A DNA stretch of 64,000 bases from a virus: the IMG/VR virus record IMGVR_UViG_3300010354_000047, positions 1 to 64,000 of that record; one strand, given 5' to 3'. The translations under genes and the position numbers were made by a program. The notes under the pieces were generated by a model, which was given only the letters and a program-made list of their open reading frames with translations, was not told the DNA's origin and did not search any database. Shown here one piece after another: positions 11,936 through 29,394 of this stretch; the first letter of the stretch is position 1; each line of letters opens with the position of its first letter.

Positions 11936-13015
11936 ATGGCAACATCTGTTTTACAACGACCAAAGGCAAATACCTGGGAGTCGTTCTGTCAGTGGGTAAC
12001 TTCCACTAACAACCGGTTGTACGTCGGTTGGTTCGGTACGCTCATGATTCCGTGCCTTCTTGCGGCAACAATCTGCTTCATTGTGGCTTTTATTGCAGCG
12101 CCGCCCGTCGATATTGACGGAATACGTGAACCAGTTGCTGGTTCTCTCATGTACGGCAACAACATCATCTCTGGTGCCGTAGTACCAAGTTCAAATGCGA
12201 TTGGATTGCATTTTTATCCAATCTGGGAAGCTGCTTCCCTTGATGAGTGGCTCTACAATGGAGGCCCTTATCAATTAGTTGTTTTTCACTTCCTTATTGG
12301 CGTCTTCTGCTACATGGGTCGTGAATGGGAACTTTCATACCGTCTAGGTATGCGCCCTTGGATCATGGTTGCTTACTCGGCTCCTGTAGCCGCTGCAACT
12401 GCTGTGTTCCTGATCTATCCTTTCGGTCAAGGGTCATTTTCTGACGGAATGCCCCTCGGGATCAGTGGGACCTTCAACTATATGATTGTTTTCACTGCTG
12501 AGCACAACATTCTGATGCACCCCTTCCACATGCTGGGTGTGGCCGGTGTCTTCGGTGGTTCTTTGTTCTCTGCCATGCATGGAAGCCTCGTAACCAGTTC
12601 ACTGGTGCGTGAAACCACTGAGAATGAAAGCCAGAACTACGGTTACAAGTTCGGTCAAGAGGAAGAAACGTACAATATTGTTGCTGCTCATGGGTATTTC
12701 GGAAGACTAATCTTCCAGTACGCCAGCTTCAACAACTCCCGTTCGCTTCACTTCTTCCTTGCAGCTTGGCCTGTGGTTGGAATCTGGTTTGCTGCTCTTG
12801 GAGTTAGCTCCATGGCATTCAACCTGAATGGGTTTAATTTCAACTCCAGCATCATGGATTCGCAAGGTAGGGTGATACCTACCTGGGCAGACATCCTAAA
12901 TCGCGCTAATTTGGGAATCGAAGTTGTCCACGAAAGAAATGCCCATAATTTCCCACTGGACCTCGCTGCTACCACGTCAACCCAAGTTGCTTTAACTGCT
13001 CCTGTGGTTGGCTGA
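11936..13015 (+). CDS. psbA: Photosystem II D1 protein
   Basis: 359 aa, full length for cyanobacterial D1. It replaces the host D1 in thylakoid photosystem II so that photosynthesis continues during infection. Landmarks are present: Tyr161 in the [12 protein letters not shown] loop, the [14 protein letters not shown] segment with His190, the later [14 protein letters not shown] segment, and the carboxy-terminal processing site after NFPLDLA. Residue 130 is Glu (MGREWELS), the form associated with high-light D1 variants. No intron interrupts the gene. A leader with two hairpins precedes it and a terminator follows directly. Confidence 0.98.
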
Positions 13016-20401: not shown

Positions 20402-20425
20402 AGGGCACCCCCTTTTGGGGTGCTC
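20402..20425 (+). terminator. Hairpin terminator
   Basis: AGGGCACCCC pairs with GGGGTGCTCT around a CTTTT loop, followed by ACATTTT. It closes the preceding gene just upstream of the modification cluster promoter. Confidence 0.7.
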
Positions 20426-20442
20426 TACATTTTGGTTCAAAG

Positions 20443-20469
20443 TTTACCAGGGACTCTCGGTGCTATGCT
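20443..20469 (+). promoter_or_regulatory. Promoter of the TET/JBP cluster
   Basis: TTTACC (20443-20448), 15 bases, TATGCT (20464-20469), 36 bases before ATG 20505; an AGGAGG-like site (20493-20498) sits before the start. Confidence 0.6.
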
Positions 20470-20504: not shown

Positions 20505-21914
20505 ATGAGAGAAATCCACCTAAAAGACTTAATACCCTTTGATCAAAAGAGGATGGGAAGCGTCCCGTCCGAAAGCGACTATCACGAGCTTATCAATGAA
20601 GATTGCAACGTTTATCTTCCCGATGGCTCCCTAGCAGTTGCTTTTCGAAAGAACGCTTTGAAAACTGCTCAATCCATCCATCCGGGCTCAAAGGAATACG
20701 ATTACTGGCGCTGGGCCTGCCGTTCCCTTCTCTCCGACCAACGAGGGAACGCGGCTGGCTCAGAGATAACAACCAATGTAGAAATTCGCCTAACTGAAGG
20801 ACAAAAAGAGTTTTTCTCAAAAGCTGTCAAGGGGCAGGTTTCAACCTTGACCGACGCTCTCGAAATTGTAGCGAACGACACAAGAGTTTCAAGGTCAACA
20901 TACTACGTAGGAAAAGCTGAAGCAGATGGATTGGTAGATCTAGAAGAGGTTGAAAAGTGGGACTCTTTAGTCCGCCGCAAATCAACGCCATTTGATCTCC
21001 GCCAAGAAGCCATCTCAAAGAGGAATCAGGCAAAATTAGCCTGGTTTGAAAAGTGGCTGCGAGAAGTTTGGGACAAGGCAGAAAATCGAAAAGAAGCCGC
21101 AATCACGGCTAAAAAGCGCTACGTCACCAACCAACCGCGAGGGCAAAAGGTGTACTCCGCAGTTCTCGGAGTCATCACGAGATCCGGGAGAACTCCGTTC
21201 GCTCGCCTCACATCACCAACGATGGAAAAGTACGAGGAGTTTGAATCCTTCGCCCCTTTGTACAAAGAAGTTGACTCCTTAGTTAAAAGCCTGTTTCCAC
21301 GAGAGTGGGGTATTCTCAAAGATCGATACCATGGAGTGAAGGACGAGCGTTACTCACTATTTGGAACCGTTTTCTCGTCGATCACTTGCAACTGGAACTT
21401 TCCAACCTGCTGGCACCGAGACGGACAAAACGCGAAAGATGCCGTTGCCGCTCTCGTTTGCTTTGACCGAGGGGGATATGACGGTGTTGACTTTGTGATG
21501 GCCGAGCTCGGGCTCGCGTTTCACATGCGCCACGGTGATGTCTTGATCGGAGACAACCAAGGAATCACGCACGGGCAAACCCCCTTTGTCCCGAAAACCG
21601 ACGACGCAGAGAACCTGGTTCTCGTCTTCTACTCTCGCGACGCAATCACCACACTTGACTCGCTGGAGTGTGAAACTTGCAGGCGAGAATTCATGGACTA
21701 CCTTGTTCACAATCACCCCGAACTCGGAAACGGTGAAGCGAAGTGGAACGGAAGTGTCCCAGGAGTCTGGAACTCGAAATACTGGAACGACTACAAAGCC
21801 CTTCGATCAAAGGAAGGAATTTACGACTACACCGTTTGTTCTAACACCAATCTGTCCGGAAAACTGGACACCGGCGAAGTCGAGATTCGTCAGCCCCATC
21901 TACTTAAGAAGTGA
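20505..21914 (+). CDS. TET/JBP-family Fe(II)/2-oxoglutarate DNA-base dioxygenase
   Basis: 469 aa from ATG 20505, with an AGGAGG-like site upstream. The C-terminal half matches the Tet_JBP oxygenase domain. VYSAVLGVI and FARLT strands and a helix (YKEVDSLVKSLFP) come first. Then NFPTCWHRD supplies the HxD iron ligands, GGYDGVDFVMAELGLAF and HMRHGDVLIGDN form the core, ITHGQTPF gives the distal His, and FYSRDAI a likely 2-oxoglutarate Arg. The N-terminal 200 residues are helical and unassigned. Family members hydroxylate 5-methylcytosine or thymine in DNA. A glycosyltransferase follows directly. No cytosine methyltransferase is in the window, so the base is unknown. Confidence 0.82.
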   Translation: MREIHLKDLIPFDQKRMGSVPSESDYHELINEDCNVYLPDGSLAVAFRKNALKTAQSIHPGSKEYDYWRWACRSLLSDQRGNAAGSEITTNVEIRLTEGQKEFFSKAVKGQVSTLTDALEIVANDTRVSRSTYYVGKAEADGLVDLEEVEKWDSLVRRKSTPFDLRQEAISKRNQAKLAWFEKWLREVWDKAENRKEAAITAKKRYVTNQPRGQKVYSAVLGVITRSGRTPFARLTSPTMEKYEEFESFAPLYKEVDSLVKSLFPREWGILKDRYHGVKDERYSLFGTVFSSITCNWNFPTCWHRDGQNAKDAVAALVCFDRGGYDGVDFVMAELGLAFHMRHGDVLIGDNQGITHGQTPFVPKTDDAENLVLVFYSRDAITTLDSLECETCRREFMDYLVHNHPELGNGEAKWNGSVPGVWNSKYWNDYKALRSKEGIYDYTVCSNTNLSGKLDTGEVEIRQPHLLKK

Positions 21915-21931
21915 ATAGCTGTTTACCGCAA

Positions 21932-22777
21932 ATGACAAAACAATCGTTCAAGGTCGTAGTCCCAACCTATGGCAGATCGGATGCAATCGGAAAGTACACA
22001 ATGAGTTATCTCCGAAAGACCGACGTGGATCTTTCCGAAGTCTACCTCTTTGTAGCAAGTGAAGAAGAGAAGGAAAAATACAAGGCTTCCAACCCGGATG
22101 TGAAAATTGTAGTCGGAGTGAAAGGTCTTCCTCAGCAAAGGAAGTTCATTTCTGAATACTTTGAGCCGGGAACTCGCATACTTTCCCTTGACGACGACGT
22201 TTCAGGTCTCCAAAGGCTGGTCCTTCTCGATAAACTGGAAGGCCCTCAGAAGCCCCTTGACCACCCTTGCAAACTCGAAACGGTGACCAACCTCGTAGAG
22301 TTTGTCGAGAAAGGCTGGAAGCTGGCTGAAGGTAGAGGAATTGAACTCTGGGGGGCTTACCAAGTCGCTAACAAAGGTTTTCTGCATCCAAAGGTGAAGA
22401 CAGGAGCCCTGTTTATCATGGGGCACTTCTTCTCCTTTCTCGCGGGAGACCCCGTCTTTAACGAGATCACGCAATACCCTTGCAAGGATGACGTTTTCTG
22501 GTCTGTGTGGCACCATGTGAACCGAAAAGGAACTCTTCGCTTTGACAATTACTGCGTAAAGTCAAAAGCCCACTCTGGCTCGGGCGGGACAAACGAAGAC
22601 ATGGAGCGAAAGTTGCAGATCAACAACGAAACTTGTGAGGCGATTTGCTCGAAATATCCTGAGATTGCGTCGATCAAAATGCGAAAGACGAAAGATCCCT
22701 GGCTAAGCAGGTACAAGGAAATTCGGCTCAAACCGATCACTTACGAGACTCTCGTTGTAACCGACGACTGTTACTGA
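21932..22777 (+). CDS. GT-A glycosyltransferase, TET/JBP-associated type
   Basis: 281 aa from ATG 21932; a GTG at 21911 overlapping the previous stop is an alternative. N-terminal FKVVVPTYGRSDAIG is the nucleotide-sugar-binding start, and ILSLDDDVSGL near residue 88 is the metal-binding DxD. Glycosyltransferases next to TET/JBP genes in phages transfer sugars to hydroxymethylated bases. The position here suggests the same role, in the cytoplasm on phage DNA. Confidence 0.78.
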   Translation: MTKQSFKVVVPTYGRSDAIGKYTMSYLRKTDVDLSEVYLFVASEEEKEKYKASNPDVKIVVGVKGLPQQRKFISEYFEPGTRILSLDDDVSGLQRLVLLDKLEGPQKPLDHPCKLETVTNLVEFVEKGWKLAEGRGIELWGAYQVANKGFLHPKVKTGALFIMGHFFSFLAGDPVFNEITQYPCKDDVFWSVWHHVNRKGTLRFDNYCVKSKAHSGSGGTNEDMERKLQINNETCEAICSKYPEIASIKMRKTKDPWLSRYKEIRLKPITYETLVVTDDCY

Positions 22778-22782
22778 TCGAA

Positions 22783-22826
22783 GGGGCGGATTTCCGCCCT
22801 TTACTTATCTTTGGGCGCGCTATGTC
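22783..22826 (+). promoter_or_regulatory. Terminator hairpin fused to sigma70-like promoter
   Basis: GGGCGG (22784-22789), loop ATTT, CCGCCC (22794-22799), then TTTACT (22800-22805), 15 bases, TATGTC (22821-22826). It splits the modification cluster into two transcription units. Confidence 0.6.
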
Positions 22827-22847
22827 TTGTTCACACCACTTTCAACC

Positions 22848-23198
22848 ATGATTCCAGACCCAAAGAAAACAATTGTATTCGACGTTGATGATACCATTCT
22901 CACAACGGTCAATCGGGATTACGAAAACTCCCAACCACGGGGGGAGGTTATCCAAGGTATGAAGACCCTGAAAGAAAGAGGGTGGACGATCATCCTCCAT
23001 ACGGCTCGTGGAATGGGTCGATCAAATGGGGACATCGAGAGTGTGAGGGAAGAAGTTATCGATGAAATCGAAAAGTTTTGCGATAAATACGATGTGCCAT
23101 TCGACGAGATCCAGATCGGAAAGCCGTGGGCAGCCCTTTACGTCGACGATAAAGCACTCACTCCCGAACAGTTTTCAAAAGTAGTAGAGGCACTGTGA
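22848..23198 (+). CDS. HAD-superfamily sugar-phosphatase-like protein
   Basis: 116 aa. IVFDVDDTI has the catalytic DxDxT, ILHTARGMG the second motif (Thr), and KPWAALYVDDKAL the Lys and acidic motifs III/IV. The compact size matches capsule-biosynthesis-type HAD phosphatases. With the following nucleotidyltransferase and kinase it may prepare a sugar for activation. GTGA overlap with the next gene. Confidence 0.78.
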   Translation: MIPDPKKTIVFDVDDTILTTVNRDYENSQPRGEVIQGMKTLKERGWTIILHTARGMGRSNGDIESVREEVIDEIEKFCDKYDVPFDEIQIGKPWAALYVDDKALTPEQFSKVVEAL

Positions 23199-23911
23199 AA
23201 AACGCTCTCATTTTGGCTGCTGGCCGCAGCTCAAGGTTCGGCCGAAACAAACTTGAGGAAAAGTTTGATGGGGAGACTCTCCCCTTTATCGCTGCAAAGT
23301 TTGCTCTTGAGAACGGCGCGAAAAACATCTACTTGACCCTGTCTCGCTCAGCGATCAAAACGGATGGAAAACGTGTATACCATCCCGTTCTCGAAGAGGT
23401 TTCCAGAATTTGTGACCCTGTTGTTCGCTTTCAGAGCGAGGAAACATACGGCCCTGGTGCCGCAATCACAACCTGGGCCGGAATTCTCGAAGAACCCTTC
23501 ACTGTTTTGTTCGGGGACAATCTTTACCTTGGGGAAATGCCAGATTGGATGACCCGAAATCTCTCTAGCTCTGACCAGCAAGACGTAATTTTTACAACTC
23601 GTCGAAGCCTTGTTAACCCTCGAAACTTGCAGTTGGCTGCCGTGGTTAACAACTACGTGATTGAAAAACCTCACGGGAGGCTTGAGGGGAATTTCTTCTG
23701 TGGTTTCGCTCGATTCCCACAGGGTTATCTGTCAAGGGTGGGAGACCTACGAAAGAGCGATCGAGGGGAAGTTGAGATCACTGACATGATCAACATGTCG
23801 GAGAACTGTCAATCTTGGGATATACAAAGGGACCTGGGTGTCATCTGGGCAGATCTCACTTACGAAGCCGATTGCGCAAGAATTCGGGAGCTTCTGTATG
23901 AAGGGAAGTAG
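23195..23911 (+). CDS. Sugar nucleotidyltransferase
   Basis: 238 aa, GTG start inside the previous stop. The N-terminal LILAAGRSSRFG is the nucleotide-binding loop of NTP_transferase enzymes. FTVLFGDNLYL has the metal-binding GD, VIEKPHGRLEGNFFCGF the substrate strand, and GEVEITDMI the closing metal ligand. It would make an NDP-sugar from a sugar-1-phosphate. Which sugar and nucleotide are not readable. Likely donor supply for the glycosyltransferase upstream. Confidence 0.8.
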   Translation: MKNALILAAGRSSRFGRNKLEEKFDGETLPFIAAKFALENGAKNIYLTLSRSAIKTDGKRVYHPVLEEVSRICDPVVRFQSEETYGPGAAITTWAGILEEPFTVLFGDNLYLGEMPDWMTRNLSSSDQQDVIFTTRRSLVNPRNLQLAAVVNNYVIEKPHGRLEGNFFCGFARFPQGYLSRVGDLRKSDRGEVEITDMINMSENCQSWDIQRDLGVIWADLTYEADCARIRELLYEGK

Positions 23912-24644
23912 TGGCGCAACGCTCGATTTCTCTGGGGATTACATTCGGAAAAGCTGCAAGGACGCCATCGAACAGTGCGAGTGGTTTGATATTGCTGCGA
24001 AACTCCCCCTTGTGAACGGCATTCGTATCCCGCAAACCATTCTTGAAACGGGCTCAGACTATCAAATCGAGTTTGTAGAAGGAGTATCGGGAACGAAAGT
24101 GGATTCCACTCGTATTCTGGATAGTCTTGTAGATCAAGTTTTCTTGTGGTCAAAAGTCCCTTCGGTTCGGAAAGCGACTTGGAAGTCTTATATCCAGCGA
24201 CTGTACGACGAACATGTCTCCCTATGCGACAGTCAAATAGTTCGACGAGTTTTCGAAAAACTCGATGAAATTGATGGCTGTCCTTCGAGTTTCTCTCACG
24301 GAGATCTGACTCTCGAAAACGTCCTGGTCGAAAACAATGGTGGAATCGTGCTGATAGACCCCAATTTCAAAATGAATCTCTTTCAGTCCTATATCCTGGA
24401 CTTAGGAAAACTTCTTCAGTCCGTTCACAGTGACTACCACCGCCTCTTTGACTCCCATCCTGGGGGCGACCCTTCGGCTCTGTGCGCCCACCTGCGGCAG
24501 AGGCTGGGGCAAGGGCTATGGCGCCAGGCTCTGGTCGCTGAGATGTCGCACGTGGTCCGCTTGCGCAAGTATCGCCCCGCCTCCCAACACCCCATTGTGG
24601 ACGGGCTCTTGGAGAGGCTCCTGCAGGAATACCTTTACAGTTGA
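23898..24644 (+). CDS. APH/choline-kinase-fold small-molecule kinase
   Basis: 248 aa from ATG 23898, overlapping the nucleotidyltransferase gene by 14 bases. GSSGATLDFSGDYIRKSC is a nucleotide-binding loop. SHGDLTLENVLV near residue 135 is the HGDxxxxN catalytic loop, and IVLIDPNF holds the metal-binding Asp. Kinases of this fold phosphorylate sugars, choline or aminoglycosides. Here a sugar kinase giving sugar-1-phosphate fits best. The last 55 codons (from about 24460) are abruptly GC-rich, suggesting a recombined 3' end. Confidence 0.75.
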   Translation: MKGSSGATLDFSGDYIRKSCKDAIEQCEWFDIAAKLPLVNGIRIPQTILETGSDYQIEFVEGVSGTKVDSTRILDSLVDQVFLWSKVPSVRKATWKSYIQRLYDEHVSLCDSQIVRRVFEKLDEIDGCPSSFSHGDLTLENVLVENNGGIVLIDPNFKMNLFQSYILDLGKLLQSVHSDYHRLFDSHPGGDPSALCAHLRQRLGQGLWRQALVAEMSHVVRLRKYRPASQHPIVDGLLERLLQEYLYS

Positions 24645-25261: not shown

Positions 25262-25897
25262 ATGAACATCAGGTTTATAGGAGACGTCCACAGAAAGTGG
25301 GATAAATACAAGAAGCTAATCAAAGGCTATGAACGCTCTCTACAAGTCGGGGACTTTGGTATTGGGTTCATCAACCCTCACACTGAGAAACCGTACAGCA
25401 ACCCTCCCTATGACCACATGTCTAAGGGGGAACACTTCTTCATTCGAGGAAACCATGACAATCCTGGCCAATGCTCTCGTCACCCGTATTGGGTGAAAGA
25501 TGGCGGCTCTGTGTTTGGCCGCGACGACATTTTCTGCGTTGGCGGTGCCGTCTCGATCGACAAACACCGTCGAACCGAAGGCTACGACTGGTGGCACAAT
25601 GAAGAGCTTTCTTACACAGAGCTCTGCAAAGTCATGGACATCTACGAGCTCGTCAAGCCGAAGATCGTCGTGAGCCACGAATGTCCCGATAGTGTTATTT
25701 CTCGTGTGTTACACGAACAGGGGATGTTTAAATACGACATCCCCTCAACCACTCGCAAGTGCTTTGACAATATGCTCGAGATTCACAAACCTGACTTGTG
25801 GATTCATGGCCACTGGCACTTCGACCACCACACTGTTCATAATGGCGTGGAGTTTATTGGCCTCGGCGAGCTTTCTCACCTCGACCTTGAAGTGTAG
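25262..25897 (+). CDS. Calcineurin-like metallophosphoesterase
   Basis: 211 aa from ATG 25262. All five metal motifs are visible: GDVH at the N-terminus, LQVGDFG near residue 32, RGNHDNP near 63, VVSHECP near 138, and WIHGHWHFDHH near 182. This family cleaves phosphomono- or diesters with two metal ions. Phage members vary from phosphatases to nucleases. Substrate unknown. Confidence 0.85.
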   Translation: MNIRFIGDVHRKWDKYKKLIKGYERSLQVGDFGIGFINPHTEKPYSNPPYDHMSKGEHFFIRGNHDNPGQCSRHPYWVKDGGSVFGRDDIFCVGGAVSIDKHRRTEGYDWWHNEELSYTELCKVMDIYELVKPKIVVSHECPDSVISRVLHEQGMFKYDIPSTTRKCFDNMLEIHKPDLWIHGHWHFDHHTVHNGVEFIGLGELSHLDLEV

Positions 25898-27369: not shown

Positions 27370-29394
27370 ATGGAAACACCTACCAACCTCGTCACGCAGC
27401 TGAAGGAAGACTACCTCAGCTACTCCATGGCTGTTCTAGTCGGAAGGAGCATTCCCGATCTGTACGACGGGTTGAAACCTGCTCAGAGAAGAATTCTTCA
27501 AACGATGTTTGAGGAGGGATTTCTTCCAAACAAGCCCTACGTGAAGTGTGCCCGTACAACCGGTCTCACAAGCGCATTCTACCATCCCCATGGGACCTGT
27601 TACGGTTCCTTGATTAACATGGCTACGCCATGGAACAACAATGTTCCCTGGATAGATTGCCATGGAAACATCGGAAGTTCTGTAGATAATCCGGCAGCTG
27701 AGAGGTACGTTGAAAACAGACTCCGGATTTCGGCCATCGACCTTCTTATGAAGGATCGAGAAGTCTGGGAAACTCGGTCCAACTACGACGGAAGCCGCCA
27801 GGAAGCAGTTCGCTTTAATAGTGCTATTCCAACTGTTCTGTTGAACGGGGACTCCGGAATCGCTGTAGGTTTTGCTACTCGTTTGGCCCCACACGGACTT
27901 CGCTCGATTGTGGAGTCTGTGAAACTTTTGTGTAAAGACTCTCCCGATAGTAAAAAGTATTCGGATAATCTAACAAAAGCTCGGGAAATCCTCCTGCCAG
28001 ATTTTCCAACAGGAACCCAGATCATTCGCGATGAGCAACTTAATCTTTACTCTCAGACTGGTAGCGGGAACATTCGCTGTCGGGCAATTGTTGCTGAGGG
28101 TGTACAAAAACGGAGCGGTAAAGCAAAAGATAGATCCACTCTGGCCTTTACTCATCTCCCTCCCGGAGCTAACCCTGAAAAGCTGGGTGAGCAAATTCGA
28201 AACGAAGTAGAGAAGGAAAGGATCACAGGAGTAGCAGAAGTTAACGATCTCTCAGACCAAACAGGGGATTGCCTCGAGATTGTCGCAAAACCCGGAACAA
28301 ACATTGAGGATCTAAAGAAACAGCTCTACGCATACACAGACCTTGAGTTGAGATACTCGGCTAAGACACTTGTAATCGATGGCGTCCGACCGGTTGAACT
28401 CTCCCCGGTTCAAATCATTGAGAGGTGGATTCGTTGGCGCCTCTCTCGTCTTCAGAGCAAGTTTCTCCACGAGCTTTCCCTTCGAAATTCTCGCCTTCAT
28501 ATTGTAGAAGGTTTGCTAAAGGCCATCAACAAGATGGACGAGATTATCAAGAAAATTCGCTCATCCGAGAGCAAGAAGGAAGCGAAGGAAAACCTGATGG
28601 GCAAACCGTTCTTGTTTTCCAGCGAACAAGCGGAAGCCATTCTCGAAATGCGCCTCCGTCAACTCACAAACCTTGACCAAAGCGAACTCTCTGAAGAAGC
28701 TGAAAAACTCCGAAGTAGGGTCGAAGAGCTGGAAAAACTTTCCCAGGATAACAAGGAGGGGGAACAAGCCCGAAAGTCCTACCTTGTGACTGAGGTGACA
28801 GAGCTAGGCAAACGCCACGGAGAGGCCCGCAGGAGCCCCCTGGTGGAGCCCCCCGCAAGCGAGGCCAACCTGGCCCCAGGTGAGCGAAAGAGAGCCCCTG
28901 CAGCTCCGACAAAGCCCCGGTTTCTGAAGGTGGACCTTAAGAAAGGTGTGGTGGAACAAGCGAAAGGCCCTCGTGGAGCGTTGGTAGTTGAAGCAAAGGA
29001 GAAAATTATCCTTATGACTTCAGATGGAACTCTAAAGAAAGTTGCTGCCAACTTTAAGGGGACAATTTCCACGAGCTACTCCCCTGTCACTCTTGCTAAA
29101 AAAGAGTCAGATGTTTCCTCTCGAAAGTATCTCGCAGTCTTCTCCCTCGACGGGCAAATGAAAGCAGTCACCATTTCAGGTGAAGACCTTTGCCGAGCAA
29201 CGAGTAAAGGTAAAAGGTGGATACCCGAGGGAGCGACTCTGATCCATTTCGGTGAAAACAGTTACACAGTAGAATGGGTGTCCAAGCGAAAGAAACCTTT
29301 GAAACTGGACCTCTCCGTAAAACCTGGAAAACCCGGAGCGAAAGGAATCAAGATTGCAAATCTATCTGACGTCACTCTGACATTGGCCGGGTAA
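27370..29394 (+). CDS. Type IIA DNA topoisomerase subunit A (GyrA/ParC-like)
   Basis: 674 aa, shorter than bacterial GyrA (about 850). The breakage-reunion domain is clear: VGRSIPDLYDGLKPAQRRIL, YHPHGTCYGSLINM, and AAERYVENRL, whose Tyr113 is the DNA-cleaving residue. The tower and long coiled coil follow (EKLRSRVEELEKL). The C-terminal wrapping domain is reduced to a few blades (KIILMTSDGTLKKV). A GC-rich insert-like patch (about 28797-28915) joins coiled coil and tail. The ATPase subunit is not in the window. Likely manages supercoiling or decatenation in phage replication. Confidence 0.9.
   Translation: METPTNLVTQLKEDYLSYSMAVLVGRSIPDLYDGLKPAQRRILQTMFEEGFLPNKPYVKCARTTGLTSAFYHPHGTCYGSLINMATPWNNNVPWIDCHGNIGSSVDNPAAERYVENRLRISAIDLLMKDREVWETRSNYDGSRQEAVRFNSAIPTVLLNGDSGIAVGFATRLAPHGLRSIVESVKLLCKDSPDSKKYSDNLTKAREILLPDFPTGTQIIRDEQLNLYSQTGSGNIRCRAIVAEGVQKRSGKAKDRSTLAFTHLPPGANPEKLGEQIRNEVEKERITGVAEVNDLSDQTGDCLEIVAKPGTNIEDLKKQLYAYTDLELRYSAKTLVIDGVRPVELSPVQIIERWIRWRLSRLQSKFLHELSLRNSRLHIVEGLLKAINKMDEIIKKIRSSESKKEAKENLMGKPFLFSSEQAEAILEMRLRQLTNLDQSELSEEAEKLRSRVEELEKLSQDNKEGEQARKSYLVTEVTELGKRHGEARRSPLVEPPASEANLAPGERKRAPAAPTKPRFLKVDLKKGVVEQAKGPRGALVVEAKEKIILMTSDGTLKKVAANFKGTISTSYSPVTLAKKESDVSSRKYLAVFSLDGQMKAVTISGEDLCRATSKGKRWIPEGATLIHFGENSYTVEWVSKRKKPLKLDLSVKPGKPGAKGIKIANLSDVTLTLAG

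Follow-up and report, generated by a model that had tools for sequence, protein, structure and literature searches.

The five successive plus-strand genes at positions 20505-24644 of the window, a stretch of 64,000 nucleotides that is part of an IMG/VR virus record of 136,373 bases (IMGVR_UViG_3300010354_000047; G000, the window phage), encode a TET/JBP dioxygenase, a TET-associated glycosyltransferase (TAGT), a HAD phosphatase, a nucleotidyltransferase and an APH-fold kinase. We consider it very probable that this cassette glycosylates phage DNA, and we lean, with clearly less assurance, toward the full reading of a self-contained DNA hypermodification cassette with thymine as the acceptor and a sugar donor made by the phage; these gradings, like those given below, are judgements and not computed values. 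In our model, the TET enzyme would work on existing phage DNA and hydroxylate a 5-methylpyrimidine in it at the methyl group, most likely converting thymine to 5-hydroxymethyluracil, and TAGT would move a sugar onto the hydroxymethyl group to give a base-J-like nucleotide. For the donor, the HAD enzyme would free the sugar (or an intermediate) from its phosphate, the APH-fold kinase would make the sugar-1-phosphate, and the RmlA-like nucleotidyltransferase would turn this into a nucleoside diphosphate (NDP)-sugar. The likely benefit would be virion DNA shielded from restriction or other host nucleases. An earlier reading of the bare sequence (the original prediction) had placed five such genes in a row in a psbA-carrying cyanophage, with a dioxygenase carrying HxD...H ligands and a neighboring glycosyltransferase, and these elements were all borne out: the five genes are present on the plus strand, their order recurs in other loci, and psbA lies in the same window (Table 1).

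The product of the first gene scores 59.1 bits against PF12851 (TET_JBP; curated cut-off, 34.9) and 154 bits against phrog_24024. In an alignment, the ligands H304, D306 and H356 are invariant in 8 divergent TET homologues, and so is R378, by inference the 2-oxoglutarate-binding arginine of TET. The assignment of motif residues of this kind to catalysis is established for the enzyme families of the cassette. A Foldseek search with the AlphaFold2 model (mean pLDDT, 74.6) ranked CcTet (fungal), CMD1 (algal), TET2 (human) and NgTET1 (Naegleria) first among PDB structures, with E values of 2.6e-9 to 1e-7, and placed FTO and ALKBH after them. The best structural match is therefore not a protein or small-molecule hydroxylase, and clavaminate synthase gave weak sequence matches that lie far behind the TET-type ones. 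The predicted reaction of the window enzyme is the hydroxylation of a DNA pyrimidine at its 5-methyl group, with thymine as the favored base. That it oxidizes methyl marks of the host or RNA, and not phage DNA for protection, we regard as most improbable: TET folds do resemble the RNA demethylase FTO, but the gene is constantly linked to TAGT and the donor module, the DNA of the Stenotrophomonas phage DLP6, which has a related gene set, is restriction resistant, and a module with ADDT takes the place of the sugar module in sister phages.

TAGT matches PF20691 with 50.5 bits (cut-off, 27.5) and phrog_842, the beta-glucosyl-HMC-alpha-glucosyltransferases (HMC, hydroxymethylcytosine), with an E value of 3.8e-10. 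The first two aspartates of its DDD motif are invariant in 6 homologues; a PDB sequence search with its profile gave no match. The T-even beta-glucosyl-HMC-alpha-glucosyltransferase belongs to the TAGT family (PMC13216743). The glycosyltransferase thus falls into a DNA-type family, and its predicted role is the glycosylation of a hydroxymethyl base.

The three remaining genes resemble a sugar activation module. The HAD product scores 27.0 bits against the Pfam family Hydrolase (cut-off, 26.4) and 89.4 bits (E, 1.7e-25) against TIGR01689 (EcbF/BcbF), whose cut-off of 162 marks it as a homologue and not a member; its PDB matches are 1xpj (E, 3.2e-20) and 9iqw, a "capsule biosynthesis protein" (E, 4.5e-15), and the motifs DxDxT, T, K and DD are all intact in the alignment. 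The nucleotidyltransferase reaches 30.1 bits against PF12804 (NTP_transf_3; cut-off, 27) and has the motifs LAAG..SRFG, GDN, EKP and RGEVEITD. Its profile matches RmlA (3hl3) over the full length (E, 2.7e-11) with EKP and RGE-EITD aligned, and its sugar cannot be named because the scores are far below the equivalog cut-offs. The kinase stays just under the cut-off of PF01636 (21.9 versus 23.2 bits), which its orthologue in the cultured cyanophage S-CBWM1 passes with 23.3 bits, and its motifs HGDLTLEN and IDPN (HxDxxxxN / DPN type) are invariant in 11 homologues. A PDB sequence search with the kinase profile found no match; the AlphaFold2 model (mean pLDDT, 80.4) is closest in Foldseek to FN3K (fructosamine-3-kinase) and APH aminoglycoside kinases, with maltokinase and LicA lower (E, ~1e-6 to 1e-5). 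These family assignments make it likely that phosphatase, kinase and nucleotidyltransferase supply the donor NDP-sugar. The kinase and the nucleotidyltransferase could also make a choline-like CDP-alcohol, as in LicA/LicC, from which the phospho-alcohol would be put on the base or its sugar; the choline kinase LicA is indeed among the APH-fold matches, and NTP_transf_3 is a broad family. We consider this quite unlikely, because the nucleotidyltransferase matches RmlA-type enzymes at full length with EKP and RGE-EITD, the top kinase matches (FN3K, APH) act on sugars, and the cassette has no visible LicD-like transferase.

Another destination for the sugar would be the host surface. In this alternative, the three enzymes make an NDP-sugar for capsule or lipopolysaccharide, and the adjacency to TET and TAGT is coincidental, or both uses exist. 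The HAD enzyme is EcbF/BcbF-like, and clusters with NDP-sugar and glycosyltransferase genes of such a kind have been reported in cyanophages (PMC7824862). A scan of genome contigs with the nucleotidyltransferase gave two matches, of which only that in Paenibacillus sp. A3 (L028) is informative: there, an ABC-transporter ATPase gene, which we read as a polysaccharide exporter, is followed downstream by a fusion of HAD and APH and by a nucleotidyltransferase with 33% identity. Capsule-type modules thus have the same enzyme classes in a cluster, but the module of Paenibacillus adjoins the transporter gene and that of the window adjoins TET and TAGT. Furthermore, TAGT is the sole glycosyltransferase of the cassette, TAGT, HAD, nucleotidyltransferase and kinase (TAGT-HAD-NTP-APH) are never separate where contigs cover all four, and in DLP6 a nucleotidyltransferase-kinase fusion sits between TAGT and TET. 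A role in surface glycosylation is, therefore, unlikely in our view.

IMG/VR searches with the kinase yielded 15 loci, and those with TET yielded further ones. Wherever a locus is long enough for the comparison, TAGT-HAD-NTP-APH forms an uninterrupted run in constant order, and this order is kept in the 15 loci of the kinase search (S-CBWM1 included; L030 is a truncated contig); beyond the window phage and S-CBWM1, 13 IMG/VR loci keep the four genes together in this way. In L006, L007, L009, L030-L042, L044 and S-CBWM1, the gene set is found in this order, complete or, on truncated contigs, as far as the contig reaches, and it is thus not a chance assembly. TET is located directly upstream of TAGT-HAD-NTP-APH in L006, L007, L009, L031-L036 and L043 and about 2 kb upstream in L037, L039, L041, L042 and L044, and it is sometimes duplicated beside the sugar cassette, for example, in L052. 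The surroundings mostly differ between the window and L006, L007 and L009, with a gyrA-like gene as the exception, and since the flanking genes are mostly not common to these loci, the cassette can be regarded as a unit. Within it, L006 and L036 share 65% identity in TET, 91% in HAD and 96% in the nucleotidyltransferase; the stronger divergence of TET than of the sugar genes in some pairs suggests that TET is exchanged separately from the sugar module. Each of the five genes is under purifying selection (dN/dS, 0.02-0.3).

The five-gene combination is already in public data. S-CBWM1 (MG450654; 139,069 bp; host, Synechococcus sp. CBW1002) has the five cassette genes in the same order as gp8-gp12, with identities to the window of 35% (TET), 57% (TAGT), 41% (HAD), 48% (nucleotidyltransferase) and 46% (kinase). 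The S-CBWM1 record lists gp8 as a putative SNF2 DNA repair protein, gp10 as a capsule biosynthesis phosphatase, gp11 as a glucose-1-phosphate thymidylyltransferase, and gp9 and gp12 as hypothetical proteins; it notes no DNA modification. The two genomes are broadly collinear, with ThyX and psbA in both. Stenotrophomonas phage DLP6 also has TAGT, nucleotidyltransferase and APH kinase, and TET side by side, but there kinase and nucleotidyltransferase are fused, no HAD is annotated in the cluster, and TET is 27% identical. The remark in the original prediction that no well-described example was known in a cyanophage therefore needs correction at the level of sequence: the complete set occurs, misannotated, in a cultured phage and much of it in DLP6, and no report that reads the five-gene combination as a DNA modification pathway was found among open-licence papers. 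The DNA of DLP6 is listed as restriction-enzyme resistant (PMC8228603), which supports a protective DNA modification. In the original DLP6 paper, 18 enzymes were tested, and since the panel includes enzymes with G/C-only sites, the resistance does not by itself favor thymine.

Which base is modified? The original prediction had named a cytosine C5-methyltransferase or a thymidylate hydroxymethylase as genes to look for in the rest of the genome, and the search came back empty for the window phage. No candidate for a C5-methyltransferase (PF00145) was found in 20 records with TET or cassette genes, including the window phage, the complete S-CBWM1, DLP6 and Cr30, in a search that was positive in 10-11 of 14 control genomes. 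PF00303, the family of thymidylate synthase and of dCMP/dUMP hydroxymethylases, is missing from 17 of 18 such records, the window phage and S-CBWM1 among them; the real match is in Cr30 only, and P12024L has a sub-threshold fragment. The window phage, S-CBWM1 and most of the relatives tested encode ThyX. With no C5-methyltransferase found, the 5-methylcytosine route usual for phage TETs does not fit here, and with ThyX present and neither C5-methyltransferase nor dCMP/dUMP hydroxymethylase detected, thymine is the better candidate; we think it fairly probable that thymine is the acceptor base. The idea that the phage makes both acceptor and donor thus survives as the best reading, with a co-conserved sugar activation module, and loses the usual 5-methylcytosine route to the acceptor.

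Further evidence comes from sister phages in which the decoration module itself is exchanged. In L053 (L053:11211-16320; a 201-kb contig) and L051 (L051:11213-15596), a different set of genes stands between conserved flanks in place of the sugar module: those for a glutamine amidotransferase, two amidoligase-like proteins (one with an Amidoligase_2 match below the threshold), ADDT (PF18724) and a P-loop kinase (PF18751). The conserved flanks are two TETs, an exonuclease-like gene and an R2K ATP-grasp gene upstream and a homologue of window gene 24675 downstream. In a comparison of L052 and L053, the two TETs, the R2K gene and the downstream gene align, whereas TAGT-HAD-NTP-APH and the amide module differ. 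ADDT is above the cut-off in the phages ViI, M6 and phiW-14 and is also present in the sister records G009 and G010. The hypermodified thymines of ViI, M6 and phiW-14 arise via 5-hydroxymethyldeoxyuridine (5hmdU) (PMC6449724). The exchange of the sugar module for an ADDT/amide module suggests that the oxidized base is thymine, and in the simplest reading, TET would place a hydroxymethyl group on thymine as a handle for decoration by either module. For the wider proposal, that the TET of this lineage makes 5-hydroxymethyluracil from thymine in DNA and that whole decoration modules are exchanged at the same locus, for a sugar (window, S-CBWM1) or an amino acid or amide (L053, L051), we see the scales as evenly balanced. 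An R2K-clade ATP-grasp gene adjoins both module types (L037:3211-3975; L053:10447-11211). The P-loop kinase of the sister module is ruled out as the 5hmdU kinase of ViI and M6, neither of which has a PF18751 match.

Several points weigh against thymine or against the details of the model. ADDT is absent from the window phage and S-CBWM1, and PF18751 has no match in ViI, M6 or phiW-14, so that the kinase step of the sister module, unlike anything detected in these three phages, is an analogy only. Which sugar is used and in what order HAD, kinase and nucleotidyltransferase act is our inference, and both AlphaFold2 models (TET and kinase) are of moderate confidence. The same pathway could also act on cytosine, with TET oxidizing 5-methylcytosine from a host methyltransferase or an undetected phage methyltransferase and TAGT glycosylating the resulting 5-hydroxymethylcytosine. 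PMC12730594 cites phage TETs that act on 5-methylcytosine together with a phage methyltransferase, in a described pathway of C5-methyltransferase, TET and glycosyltransferase. The T-even TAGT acts on glucosyl-hydroxymethylcytosine (PMC13216743), a host methyltransferase could supply the 5-methylcytosine (the control genome of Synechococcus elongatus has PF00145), and given the G/C-only enzymes of the resistance panel, a cytosine modification in DLP6 is possible. However, PF00145 is absent from all 20 records, a dCMP hydroxymethylase of the PF00303 type is lacking, the module is swapped with ADDT, a family of thymine-hypermodifying phages, and 5-methylcytosine of host origin would be confined to host methylation sites. 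We therefore rate cytosine as a doubtful acceptor and retain thymine in the model.

A thymine-directed cassette would differ from known systems in defined ways. Phage hypermodification by C5-methyltransferase, TET and glycosyltransferase was reportedly predicted by Iyer et al. 2013 and is said to have been treated by Burke et al. 2021. The window phage has in common with it the TET_JBP dioxygenase and the TET-associated glycosyltransferase, but its lineage has no C5-methyltransferase and adds a dedicated module for donor synthesis; the dCMP hydroxymethylase of the T4-type hydroxymethylcytosine pathway is missing as well. There is also a likeness in gene content to base J of kinetoplastids (JBP1/2 and JGT), in which TET/JBP oxidation and sugar transfer to DNA also proceed without a methyltransferase; such a gene set, a TET/JBP enzyme and a DNA glycosyltransferase with no C5-methyltransferase, is found in the window phage, and the predicted product is glycosyl-5-hydroxymethyluracil. 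With ViI, M6 and phiW-14 it would share 5hmdU as an intermediate, and these phages share ADDT with the module-swapped sisters. The window phage has neither ADDT nor a PF00303-type hydroxymethylase, and it would hydroxylate in DNA by TET, not at the nucleotide level, and attach a sugar instead of an amine. If the model is correct, phages would have a base-J-like glycosylated thymine and a modular hypermodification with a common TET-made handle. It would also yield new DNA glycosyltransferases, TETs with a possible preference for thymine and a clean exchange in nature between sugar and amino acid decoration, and annotations in public phage records, such as the "SNF2 DNA repair protein," would be corrected. 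Since S-CBWM1 has been isolated in culture, the claim is directly testable.

Table 1. Features of the cassette and its surroundings in the window
Feature	Position	Strand	Basis and remarks
psbA	11936..13015	+	87% identity over 216 aa to S-CBWM1 PsbA; cyanophage marker, outside the cassette
Terminator-like hairpin, closes the upstream unit	20402..20426	+	Strong hairpin
Promoter-like motif TTTAC ... GCTATGCT before the TET gene	20443..20469	+	Weak, pattern only
TET/JBP 2-oxoglutarate/Fe(II) dioxygenase	20505..21914	+	PF12851, phrog_24024, ligands H304/D306/H356, R378, AlphaFold2 fold
TAGT	about 21932-22777	+	PF20691, phrog_842, DDD motif
Terminator-like hairpin between TAGT and HAD	22781..22802	+	Strong hairpin
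Promoter-like motif TTTAC ... GCTATG before the donor genes	22800..22826	+	Weak, pattern only
HAD phosphatase, EcbF/BcbF capsule-phosphatase-like	22848..23198	+	TIGR01689, PDB matches, motifs intact
RmlA/GlmU-like sugar-1-phosphate nucleotidyltransferase	23195..23911	+	GTG start; PF12804, RmlA 3hl3
APH-fold small-molecule (sugar) kinase	23898..24644	+	ATG overlaps the nucleotidyltransferase gene; PF01636, motifs, AlphaFold2 fold

The cassette had also been described as two units with their own promoters, for which the support is divided. Hairpins are present at both borders, and the motif TTTAC-N12-18-GCTAT follows directly after each of them (20443 and 22800); in the record, it occurs 8 times on the plus strand and 0 times on the minus strand, a bias expected of a real promoter because almost all genes there are on the plus strand. 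A generic sigma-70 scan, on the other hand, showed no enrichment over shuffled sequences and no plus-strand site at either hairpin. The pattern suggests that the motif is a phage promoter; the two units are not proven. A second motif, GGGTAAA, is enriched upstream of the predicted genes of the window phage (16 of 75 upstream regions; 29 occurrences in the genome) and could be a ribosome-binding or promoter element.

The psbA reading frame of the window is unbroken, whereas the annotation of S-CBWM1 places two group I introns in its psbA. A calcineurin-like phosphoesterase is encoded 3' of the cassette (25262-25897), and gp16 of S-CBWM1 (55% identity) is likewise located downstream; it is possibly an accessory gene. 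A DNA gyrase subunit A-like gene (27370-29394) is kept in S-CBWM1 and in many cassette-bearing contigs.

Sugar or cyclitol genes are located beside or near TET in other phages as well: the nucleotidyltransferase-kinase fusion in DLP6, a UDP-galactopyranose mutase in C48C1, an inositol-phosphate synthase in Cr30 and a PIG-L deacetylase in Lilmac1015. In Cr30 (KF301602, 53.4-66.5 kb; L012), TET is near ADDT, a weak TAGT and the inositol-3-phosphate synthase, and these enzymes may attach another group to DNA. In phage C48C1 (OQ984149, 49.6-53.0 kb; L013), TET is followed by a 344-aa protein and then by the mutase, a gene set that suggests a furanosyl donor. A survey of jumbo phages reported no TET/JBP in them (PMC7824862). 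An IMG/VR contig of 277,244 bases (L038/L052) has two TET genes and the sugar cassette; it is jumbo-sized, and its integrity is not proven. That it is a concatemer of a genome of about 139 kb finds no support, since it has just one APH and one ThyX match.

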